Assembly (NCBI GenBank): GCA_025059995.1
Contig: JANXCF010000006.1
Location: 1 to 64,000, forward strand
Direction: 5' to 3'
Source of the DNA: Leptospiraceae bacterium
GTDB taxonomy: Bacteria; Spirochaetota; Leptospiria; Leptospirales; Leptonemataceae
Length of the DNA: 64,000 nt
Part shown: one piece after another, positions 21,313-24,669 of the stretch
How positions within the stretch are numbered: the stretch's first letter is position 1
How the letters are laid out: the number at the start of each line of letters is the position of its first letter
The notes under the pieces: generated by a model
What the model saw: the letters and a program-made list of their open reading frames with translations, nothing else
Told to the model about the DNA's origin: nothing
Database searches by the model: none
Program-made: the position numbers and the translations under genes

Positions 21313-23121
21313 TTATTCTTCTTTTTGATAATCTTTTAATGGGATTATTTTTGAAATTAAGCTATCACCCACTTGAATGAAGTTCCATGACATTCTTACG
21401 TTATGATAGGAACTATGTAATTTTTTTATGATCAAACTTCGGATTTTAGCAAAACTTTGATCATCATTTGGAGGATGATTCATGGCATGTTCGATTTCTT
21501 CATCAGAAAATATTCTTTTCGCAAGGTTTAATTCCTCGAGTTTATAATAATATCCATTGTATAAATCATGATATTTGATATCTATAGTTTTCAGTAGTTC
21601 ATAATAATTAAGGTATTCTTTAAAGTCCACTAATTCTTTGTTATGGTTTTTATGTTGTTTGATTTCTTTTAATAAAACTTCTTCTATTAGATTTTTTTTT
21701 GTCACCCAGTCAATTCTTCCAAAAAGTGATTGCCAATCTTTTTGTTCAATCAAAAATAAAATTTCTTCCCAAATCTTAATTATTAGCTGATACTCTGGTT
21801 CTTGCACTACTTTGGTTCTTAAAAAGTCCTTTGCTTTTTCGAGATACCATTTTTGGATTTCAATGGCAGTCATTTCTTTTTTTGTATTTAAACTCTCATG
21901 GTTTTTTATTATTGCTTTTTGATTGAAAAAATTTGGATACTGATTGATTTTTTCTAAAAACTTTATAGGTTTTTCAATCTGTGGGGATTCTTTTAAATAT
22001 TGTTGATCAATCATGTCTAAAATGAGGGCAGTTGTTCCTACTTTTAGAAGTTCTGCTTCTTCACACATACATGAATCCGACATGCCAATTTGAAGCCTTT
22101 GTTCTTTTTTGATTAGTTGCAAGAAGTAAGAAACATTCAATTTAAACAGGGAAAGAACAGCCAAATAAGAAAGTTTTAGTATGTTACCAGAGTCATAAAT
22201 ACACCTTTCGGAAGGAAGATTCGTTGTTCTTGAGACTCTTTTTGTAAACAATGCTTTTTCTGAGAGGTAAAATGTTCCGTTTTTTTCTATGGTTCCACTT
22301 CCAGTTAGGATTATACGGGTTATTAAAAAAGCTAATAGATTTTTTTTATAAGGACGGAAAGCAATAAGATTAAAAATAGTAATAAAAGGAAAAATCATGG
22401 GATAAGAAAAAACGATTTCAATCGACGATAAGACTATTCCTGAAATTTTTTCATACATCTGAAAAAAACTTCTATTGTTATTAGAATAAAAGAAGTCATA
22501 CGTATGGTATTTTGTTTGTCCAAACGCTTTCGAAGTAAGGTAGAAAAAATATAAAACAATCAACAATATACTTTGGATTAGAAGAATGATAAAAGAAAGC
22601 AAAAAAACACCAAAAATATATATAGCCAATAAAGGGATATAAAGATAAATAAATAGACGATAAAGTTTATAGGTAATATCATTTGCTACTGAAGCACTAT
22701 AATTTTCTTGTGCTCCGTAAACGTTTTGGTAAGCATCTTTACAGTTTTTGATAAGACTTATGGTGCTGTTGGCAAAAGAAATGTTTGAAGAGTTAATTTT
22801 TTGTAAGCTTTTCTTTAAAAGTTTGTCTATCGCCCTTTGATATAAGACTACTTCAATGGGATTAGTTGTCTCAGGGGTTGCCGCTTCTAGTAAGCCACTT
22901 TCTAAATGGTTTGGTAAACATTCATAACAAATGGAACTTCCATTTTCGAGAAAAATTTGCCCCCACTTGATGATGGAAGTTCCACTTATTGTTTTTGTAT
23001 AGTCATTTAAATATTTTAAGATAGAGTCATATATGATACGGTTGTCAGGTCTTTCAATGACGTTAGATGAAAATCTGATAGCATACTCCGTTTCTAACCC
23101 CATTAATCTTTTATTGGGCAT
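21313..23121 (-). CDS. PafA/Dop-family Pup ligase-like enzyme with a membrane insert
   Basis: A 602-residue member of the glutamine synthetase-like PafA/Dop family, which joins Pup's C-terminal glutamate to lysines (PafA) or deamidates and removes it (Dop). Family marks in order: RLMGLETEYAI (E10 and E12, metal/ATP), FLENGSS, EAATPETTNP, YGAQENYS, FLITRIILTGSG, RLQIGMSDS then LLKVGTTALIL, AIEIQKWYL, RIDWVTKKN, IKYHDL and NHPPNDDQ. Normal length is about 480-500. About 104 extra residues (155-258), mostly hydrophobic, interrupt the catalytic domain between ENYS and FLITR. Glu67 seems to replace the catalytic Asp, and the usual TRDEPHAD motif is absent. A Pup-like gene lies 3 bp upstream. Ligase versus deamidase cannot be decided. 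Confidence 0.88.
   Translation of the reverse strand: MPNKRLMGLETEYAIRFSSNVIERPDNRIIYDSILKYLNDYTKTISGTSIIKWGQIFLENGSSICYECLPNHLESGLLEAATPETTNPIEVVLYQRAIDKLLKKSLQKINSSNISFANSTISLIKNCKDAYQNVYGAQENYSASVANDITYKLYRLFIYLYIPLLAIYIFGVFLLSFIILLIQSILLIVLYFFYLTSKAFGQTKYHTYDFFYSNNNRSFFQMYEKISGIVLSSIEIVFSYPMIFPFITIFNLIAFRPYKKNLLAFLITRIILTGSGTIEKNGTFYLSEKALFTKRVSRTTNLPSERCIYDSGNILKLSYLAVLSLFKLNVSYFLQLIKKEQRLQIGMSDSCMCEEAELLKVGTTALILDMIDQQYLKESPQIEKPIKFLEKINQYPNFFNQKAIIKNHESLNTKKEMTAIEIQKWYLEKAKDFLRTKVVQEPEYQLIIKIWEEILFLIEQKDWQSLFGRIDWVTKKNLIEEVLLKEIKQHKNHNKELVDFKEYLNYYELLKTIDIKYHDLYNGYYYKLEELNLAKRIFSDEEIEHAMNHPPNDDQSFAKIRSLIIKKLHSSYHNVRMSWNFIQVGDSLISKIIPLKDYQKEE
22348..22659 (-). other. Predicted membrane insert in the PafA/Dop-like enzyme
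   Basis: Residues 155-258 of the ligase-like protein. Residues 156-195 are almost entirely Leu, Ile, Phe, Tyr and Val, long enough for two helices crossing the membrane as a hairpin. Residues 229-255 form another hydrophobic stretch. A polar 30-residue loop (200-228) joins them. Actinobacterial PafA and Dop have only about 20 residues at this point, judged from memory of their sequences. Confidence 0.75.
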
Positions 23122-23124
23122 TTC

Positions 23125-23277
23125 TTATTCACCGCCAGCATCGACCTTACTTTCTTCTAAGTAATTTTTTTCTTTTTTCACATCGATTTGAATGTAATGA
23201 ATTAGTTTTTGAATTTTATTTTCTTTTGTTTCCGAAGGCATACGATCTTCTTTTAATTTTTTTGCTGTATTATCCAT
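23125..23277 (-). CDS. Pup/UBact-like small protein modifier ending in GGE
   Basis: A 50-residue, Lys/Glu-rich protein without hydrophobic core, ending in VDAGGE. Pup (64 residues in mycobacteria) is likewise small, disordered and charged and ends in GGQ or GGE; the terminal Glu side chain is the one joined to target lysines. UBact proteins of other Gram-negatives also end in Gly-Glu/Gln. Ending in Glu means no deamidation step would be needed. ATG 23277 is set by the ribosome site GGAGG (23284-23288); an in-frame TTG upstream is rejected. The stop lies 3 bp before the PafA/Dop-like start, so the two are co-translated. The ending plus the neighbour make the assignment; sequence similarity elsewhere is weak. 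Confidence 0.8.
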   Translation of the reverse strand: MDNTAKKLKEDRMPSETKENKIQKLIHYIQIDVKKEKNYLEESKVDAGGE

Positions 23278-23280
23278 CTT

Positions 23281-23288
23281 CTTCCTCC
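23281..23288 (-). promoter_or_regulatory. Strong ribosome-binding site of the Pup-like gene
   Basis: GGAGGAAG on the minus strand ends 3 nt before the ATG at 23277, with the GGAGG core 6 nt away. It decides the start: the TTG codon ten codons upstream lies before this site and would itself have no ribosome site. It implies high translation of the modifier. Confidence 0.8.
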
Positions 23289-23305
23289 AATAAAGGTTTA
23301 AAAAC

Positions 23306-23335
23306 AATATATAATCACATCTTAAAGGATGTCAA
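23306..23335 (-). promoter_or_regulatory. Predicted sigma70-type promoter of the Pup-like/ligase operon
   Basis: On the minus strand a perfect TTGACA (-35) at 23335-23330 is followed after 16 bp by TATATA (23313-23308), or after 18 bp by TATATT. Transcription would start near 23300, leaving a leader of about 23 nt containing the ribosome site. It lies in the 72-bp gap after the lipoprotein gene, so the pair has its own promoter. Confidence 0.55.
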
Positions 23336-23874: not shown

Positions 23875-24669
23875 ATGCTCAAAAGAGTTTTTTTTCTGTT
23901 TTTATTGAATTCCTATTGTATCTATAATTCGTCATTTTACTATAACATTCCAAGAGATACCCATAGTGACTTGGTAAAAGTTTCTTCGATAAATGAAAAA
24001 TTATATTTAGTCGAAGACTTCAACTATTGGAAAACCAATACCCTCATTTACATCTCAAAAGAAAAAGTTTATTTTTTTGGCACGGGTTGGAGTTCAAAAA
24101 GTGCCCAGCAAATCCTTTGGAAAGCCAAGTCCCTAACAACAAAGGAATTTCAAGGGGTCTTTTTGATAGCTCCTACTTTGGATTACTCGGGAGGTATTTT
24201 TGAGTTTCGTATCAATGAGAATGTGCCCATTTATATTCATAAAGCAGGTTATTCTTATCTACTTTTAGAATGGGAAAAATGGCAAGAAGAGATGAAAGAG
24301 AAATTCCAAAGTTGGATAATAGAAAGACAAACTCCATCGTTTGACGGTTTATTGGATGATTCTCTCGAAATCGAAAACGGAGAAATCATGATTTTTTATC
24401 CCGAAGAAATCTTTGTTCCCGGAAACTTAGTTGTTTACTTTCCTTACGATAAATTAATTTATGGTGGGAACTTATTTTTTGATCCTGATGAATATCATTT
24501 ATATCTCAACTCGAGACAAAAACAATTTCTCGAAAATTACAAGCTCCTATTAAGAAAATTAAAGAGACTCGATATAGAAATTATTATTTCCGGTAAAGGT
24601 TCACCTTATCATAAGAAAAATCTTCTTTTTGAGATAGAAAAATATCTTAATTCTTTCAGTTCGATTTAG
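23875..24669 (+). CDS. Exported metallo-beta-lactamase-fold protein lacking the metal ligands
   Basis: 264 residues with an N-terminal hydrophobic signal. The layout follows class B beta-lactamase-like hydrolases: LYLVEDFNYWKTNTLIYIS, YFFGTGWSSKSAQ (matching the usual IDTGW), APTLDYSGGIFEF where HxHxDxxGG is expected, and later FVPGNLVVYFPYDKLIYGG matching the GHTPDNIVVYLP..kvLfGG region. The zinc histidines are replaced: only Asp of HxHxD remains, and the GHT histidine is missing. It is therefore probably not a zinc hydrolase but a binding protein with the same fold. Its end overlaps convergent ileS by 14 bp. Confidence 0.65.
   Translation: MLKRVFFLFLLNSYCIYNSSFYYNIPRDTHSDLVKVSSINEKLYLVEDFNYWKTNTLIYISKEKVYFFGTGWSSKSAQQILWKAKSLTTKEFQGVFLIAPTLDYSGGIFEFRINENVPIYIHKAGYSYLLLEWEKWQEEMKEKFQSWIIERQTPSFDGLLDDSLEIENGEIMIFYPEEIFVPGNLVVYFPYDKLIYGGNLFFDPDEYHLYLNSRQKQFLENYKLLLRKLKRLDIEIIISGKGSPYHKKNLLFEIEKYLNSFSSI

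Follow-up and report, generated by a model that had tools for sequence, protein, structure and literature searches.

Discussions of ubiquitin-like tagging outside Actinobacteria usually link it to proteasomes, and UBact loci carry proteasome genes. Pupylation of the Corynebacterium type, which operates without a proteasome, keeps the proteasomal ATPase ARC and Dop (PMC3511204). A further kind was predicted by Iyer, Burroughs and Aravind in 2008 (PMC2588565), who described ligases with transmembrane (TM) segments in Plesiocystis and Rhodopirellula, likewise without a proteasome, and predicted that the insert anchors the enzyme on the cytoplasmic face. We searched the literature and found no experimental follow-up of these TM-type ligases.

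Here we describe a locus of this kind in a spirochaete. The window, by which we mean the whole stretch of 64,000 nucleotides analysed, shares with the Plesiocystis/Rhodopirellula type (PMC2588565) a Pup-like gene adjoining one PafA-family ligase gene, TM segments just after core strand 4 of the ligase, and a lack of linked proteasome genes; none are present elsewhere in the host genome either. The locus differs in its phylum, Spirochaetota, and in the number of TM segments (four were counted there, two to four here). It also lacks the linked membrane-protein gene, an association of the 2008 report and not a defining one, and has no conserved neighbour. With its TM insert, an ORF ending in G[EQ], no linked 20S genes and a ligase in the same clade, the host locus is a further member of the kind predicted in 2008, apparently an uncharacterised one.

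The Corynebacterium type (PMC3511204) also combines Pup and a ligase without proteasome subunits, with pup directly before pafA. However, it has ARC, Dop and a soluble PafA, whereas here neither ARC nor Dop is found and the ligase bears a membrane insert. The actinobacterial system of Pup, PafA and Dop with a 20S proteasome has in common with our locus the PafA/Dop fold, the active-site set, the GGE end and a tag gene adjoining the enzyme; different here are the TM insert and the residue at the catalytic position, Glu instead of Asp. Of the actinobacterial components, we found a PafA/Dop-family ligase but no Dop, no Mpa/ARC, no 20S proteasome and no Pfam-level homology to Pup. UBact resembles the locus as a Pup-like modifier in a Gram-negative lineage and, compared by description, differs from it in that our host genome contains no proteasome genes. 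As far as could be tested, the locus represents neither classical actinobacterial pupylation nor UBact.

The gene pair and its host

Three base pairs separate the stop codon of the tag gene from the ATG of the ligase ORF (Table 1). Coordinates and sequence thus agree with the preliminary description, made from sequence inspection, of a 50-residue protein ending in GGE 3 bp before a PafA/Dop-like gene. A shared promoter with TTGACA and –10 elements had been claimed as well. The site is present and is the best of 13 promoter-like sites in the region, but the number of such sites is at chance level, being no higher than in shuffles (11.8 ± 3.5). Judged by eye, a similar TTGACA...TATATT lies upstream at two of three other loci of the genus (L006 and L007; less so L004).

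Table 1. Coordinates of the tag–ligase locus within the window
Feature	Position	Strand	Basis
Pup-like modifier gene, 50 aa	23125..23277	–	Sequence MDNTAKKLKEDRMPSETKENKIQKLIHYIQIDVKKEKNYLEESKVDAGGE, end YLEESKVDAGGE, ATG start
Membrane-inserted Pup ligase (PafA/Dop superfamily), 602 aa	21313..23121	–	PF03136, PDB profile match, AlphaFold2/Foldseek, single copy
Ribosome-binding site GGAGG (CCTCC on + strand)	23284..23288	–	Sequence; GGAGG before ATG in L004, L006 and L007 too
Promoter-like TTGACA-18-TATATT, upstream of tag gene	23306..23335	–	11/12 matches
Hydrophobic ligase insert	22366..22680	–	Predicted helices at residues 148–199 and 219–252, ~2–4 membrane passes
Codon of ligase Glu67	22921..22923	–	Position of canonical PafA/Dop catalytic Asp

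The pair is flanked by an inositol phosphatase gene (downstream) and a small lipoprotein-like ORF. Because the closest loci come from Leptospiraceae MAGs, two of which have the same downstream inositol phosphatase gene, the host is Leptospirales-like, as the preliminary description had supposed. These two shared neighbours, together with the presence of the pair in four genomes of the genus, also led us to reject MAG contamination. When about 1300 ORFs of at least 90 aa were compared, no neighbour gene proved to be kept widely beyond close relatives. Elsewhere in the window, positions 23875–24669 (+) encode a metallo-beta-lactamase-fold protein weakly nearest to subclass B2 (NCBIfam 68 bits, cut-off 535), probably an ordinary hydrolase of that fold.

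Scanning 84,980 species genomes, we obtained 46 TM-type ligase records and one actinobacterium; six of the TM-type records are contigs already found among the spirochaete relatives. At 44 of these 46 loci, a small ORF ending in -GE lies upstream of the ligase gene (39 GGE, 5 xGE; one of the ORFs starts beyond the contig end and one lies ~410 bp upstream). The exceptions are L052, whose tag ends in GAE, and L060, which has no small ORF. In all seven spirochaete genomes bearing PF03136, the ORF is directly upstream of the ligase and its GGE end is invariant. Among control frames from the same loci (40–110 codons, n = 4880), 5 end in GE and 0 in GGE. The tag family has the consensus ...I..DA...P..YL.E..VP.GGE, and its profile finds exactly one match in the host genome (E = 9e-13). 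In our search of spirochaete genomes, the tag gene was never found apart from the ligase: one match per genome in 7/7 ligase-bearing spirochaetes versus 0/15 convincing matches in related genomes without the ligase (best E = 0.07). The control frames and this co-occurrence reject a chance ORF. Given these same data and the conservation of the upstream GGE ORF, tag and ligase very probably form a functional pair, to judge from their sequences. The preliminary description had named relatives with a broken small ORF, or one lacking the GGE end, as grounds for abandoning the idea, and the idea survived the comparison.

At L055, L058/L005 and L024, no ATG, GTG or TTG occurs between the tag stop and the conserved ligase N-terminus, reflecting an unusual start codon, a frameshift or a sequence error.

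Sequence comparison does not establish the tag as a homologue of Pup. None of 25 tag members matches the Pfam Pup family, no Pfam family is matched significantly by the host tag, and a PDB search with the small protein found no meaningful match. The comparison with Pup profiles that had been proposed thus yielded no Pfam match but did give a weak hhalign alignment between the tag family and actinobacterial Pup (P = 0.017, 32 columns). The core motif of the tag is YL[ED][ED]xxVPxGGE, versus EEFVxxYVQKGG[EQ] in actinobacteria. Trypsin would not generate the GGE-modified lysine put forward earlier as a mass-spectrometric marker; the tag has its final basic residue at K44, so that VDAGGE would be left on the lysine instead (+528.22 Da by our own arithmetic).

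The ligase, its insert and its active site

The ligase matches the Pfam Pup_ligase family (PF03136) with E = 3.2e-62 (211 bits, cut-off 25; positions 1–439 of 441), and a profile of seven homologues found PafA and Dop as its only matches in the PDB. Its AlphaFold2 model (pLDDT 88.6, pTM 0.89) gave the PafA–Pup (4bjr) and Dop–Pup (7oyh) structures as best Foldseek matches (E about 1e-25). The PF03136 match and the fold, together with the conserved GGE-ending neighbour, uphold what the sequence had first suggested, namely a Pup-type modifier adjoining a PafA/Dop-family ligase. Weaker Foldseek matches to gamma-glutamyl-cysteine ligases (3ln7, 1r8g) reflect a fold common to those enzymes and PafA, and on this basis the protein could be a gamma-glutamyl peptide or metabolite ligase, with the small protein a scaffold or substrate and not a modifier of proteins. 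We give this a slim chance, as PafA/Dop is matched far better than GCS2 by both sequence and fold and no biosynthetic genes are conserved beside the pair.

In the host ligase, 129 residues separate the strand-4 motif (GAQENY) from the F..[ST]R strand, compared to 22–23 in canonical PafA/Dop. An insert of 106–150 residues with hydrophobic segments is present in 45/45 full-length TM-type members (L029, masked across the insert, was left out) and in 0/13 canonical enzymes. AlphaFold2 predicts two long helices (Table 1), and hydropathy mostly indicates two to four TM segments; the exact count is uncertain. The preliminary description had looked to actinobacterial PafA and UBact for relatives, but the insert places the ligase with the Plesiocystis/Rhodopirellula type of PMC2588565.

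In the model, the TM helices protrude right next to the active-site strand (core strand 4), an arrangement that would bring the pocket to the membrane surface. With the pocket there, and neither a proteasome nor an unfoldase that could recognise a degradation signal, the acceptor might be a membrane amine such as phosphatidylethanolamine, the module lipidating its own tag in a manner analogous to Atg8. Known PafA enzymes use protein lysines, however, and we regard tag lipidation as highly improbable.

Residues E10 and E12 (the GhExE metal/ATP residues), E84, R269, R342, D349, W472 and R561 match their canonical counterparts, and the strand-4 [HQ]xN motif appears as QEN within GAQENY (motifs compared with PMC2588565). 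Position 67, by contrast, is Glu in 46/46 TM-type ligases and Asp in 13/13 canonical PafA/Dop enzymes, an equivalence that rests on a sequence alignment ungapped around this position (NGSSICYE versus NGSRLYLD). The aligned Asp of Dop (D94) has been proposed to activate water (PMC8599861). As the canonical catalytic Asp is replaced by Glu in TM-type ligases, their chemistry or rate may differ from that of PafA/Dop. We found no discussion of this fixed substitution in the literature examined.

Missing partners and spread of the module

A genome search for prcA, prcB and mpa/ARC, as suggested in the preliminary description, found none of them in the host (2.38 Mb, 95.8% complete). Its sole PF00227 protein is a 180-aa HslV, which rejects a hidden 20S proteasome. 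The Mpa/ARC OB domain (PF16450) is absent from 7/7 spirochaete carriers, while the controls, C. glutamicum and four archaea, all matched. For the bacterial 20S beta subunit (TIGR03690), no protein scored over the cut-off in 35 genomes, including 34 TM-type carriers, and the controls were also below it. Across the other phyla, most carriers lack Mpa/ARC; four weak matches fell on ORFs of 75–120 aa, and there was one ARC-like AAA protein (in genome G416). With no 20S proteasome and no Mpa/ARC found, the pupylation–proteasome pathway does not apply. One caveat is that an absent gene could sit in a gap of the host assembly; six relatives are without these partners too.

The host genome has one PF03136 match and hence no separate Dop, and PF03136 is found at a single locus in 32/34 non-actinobacterial TM-type carriers. 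This raises the question of whether the enzyme is bifunctional, attaching and removing the tag, or mainly of the depupylase/deamidase type, freeing the tag from something else. The single copy would fit, as would a structural likeness to Dop as good as that to PafA (TMt 0.77–0.81 versus 0.72), and in a 2020 study planctomycete homologues present in single copy served as outgroup to PafA and Dop alike (PMC7947786). On the other hand, a lone depupylase would have no ligase partner beside its GGE-ending tag gene and, the tag ending in Glu, nothing to deamidate. NCBIfam scores also rank PafA (151 bits, cut-off 551) above Dop (122 bits), though both are far below cut-off. We therefore consider an enzyme of this type unlikely.

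The 46 TM-type loci are distributed over Planctomycetota, Myxococcota, Acidobacteriota and Spirochaetota. In the tree, TM-type ligases form one side of a 100/100 branch, opposite actinobacterial PafA/Dop, with Plesiocystis (L048) inside. The window's genus groups with Candidatus Uabimicrobium (100/98), and three other spirochaete ligases group with Myxococcota/Acidobacteriota sequences (92/91). Vertical descent from one spirochaete ancestor was rejected under a single-clade constraint (p-AU 0.007, a value that long branches keep from being final). Because the spirochaete ligases fall into two clades and a single clade is rejected, these trees suggest that they were probably acquired more than once; horizontal spread of the module is likely, with the same caution about long branches. 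The phylum had been flagged as unexpected for pupylation, and indeed our literature search found no paper tying pupylation or UBact to Leptospira or to spirochaetes.

Presence within the spirochaetes is patchy (6/22 genomes in the family, 7/393 sampled in the phylum), as it might be for a functionless relic or a decaying pair acquired horizontally. Yet the pair is intact in 4/4 genomes of the window's genus, at about 53–56% ligase identity, and must be regarded as settled there since all four carry it. The catalytic residues and the tag end are invariant, and dN/dS is below 1, weakly, in all five computable small-ORF comparisons. The probability that the pair is a relic seems to us close to negligible.

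Several other PafA-related arrangements were encountered. Two Pirellulaceae genomes also encode, at L111 (G402:C75:5500-11500) and L112 (G418:C433:65000-71000), two divergent Pup_ligase-family proteins in tandem. One of the two is about 830–875 aa long, with an extended additional C-terminal region, and the tandem adjoins a gene for an AAA ATPase in which no proteasomal OB domain was detected; this is possibly a third kind of PafA-based system. G416, the genome of the early-branching planctomycete L052 (tag GAE), encodes an AAA ATPase (L126) that matches the proteasomal-ATPase OB domain weakly and adjoins a 332-aa protein without a Pfam match. The actinobacterium Flaviflexus huanghaiensis (L059, L113; genome G421) has two separate Dop–Pup–PafA-like sets with four PF03136 matches, along with two proteasomal-ATPase OB matches and no 20S beta subunit over the cut-off.

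A proposed role at the membrane

Taken as a whole, the sequence data make it fairly probable that the locus encodes a stand-alone, two-gene Pup-type conjugation module with a membrane-held ligase and a non-proteasomal mark. We infer the conjugation chemistry from the fold and the conserved residues, and the membrane location from the insert. The tag would be made with its C-terminal Glu already exposed, and therefore no deamidation by Dop would be needed. The ligase, a glutamine-synthetase-fold relative of PafA/Dop, would bind the C-terminal segment of the tag, use ATP to phosphorylate the terminal Glu at its gamma-carboxylate, and then pass the tag to a lysine amine to give a gamma-glutamyl isopeptide. 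One or more TM hairpins would hold the enzyme at the inner membrane, on its cytoplasmic face, and its targets would therefore be membrane or membrane-near proteins. As neither a 20S proteasome nor Mpa/ARC was found, the classical Pup–proteasome route would not read the mark; most likely it would alter the function or assembly of membrane proteins, or pass proteins to a protease such as FtsH. Since there is no separate Dop, removal of the tag, if any, would fall to the same enzyme or to an unrelated protease.

More tentatively, the TM-type modules of the several phyla may constitute a second, separate Pup system that marks membrane components, possibly aminolipids, in a manner unrelated to proteasomal degradation, with a membrane-embedded ligase that has Glu where PafA/Dop have the catalytic Asp and that both writes and erases the mark. 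This broader idea is possible, although we would not bet on it.

The kind of module described here was predicted in 2008, and its occurrence in a spirochaete appears to be unreported in the literature we searched. A clade spanning at least four phyla keeps only the tag and a membrane-inserted ligase. It follows that, with no 20S proteasome, tagging in these organisms must serve something other than feeding one. The invariant Glu at the position of the catalytic Asp poses a directly testable question of enzymology, and the pair, a minimal system of two genes, lends itself to asking what such a ubiquitin-like mark achieves when no degradation machinery accompanies it.
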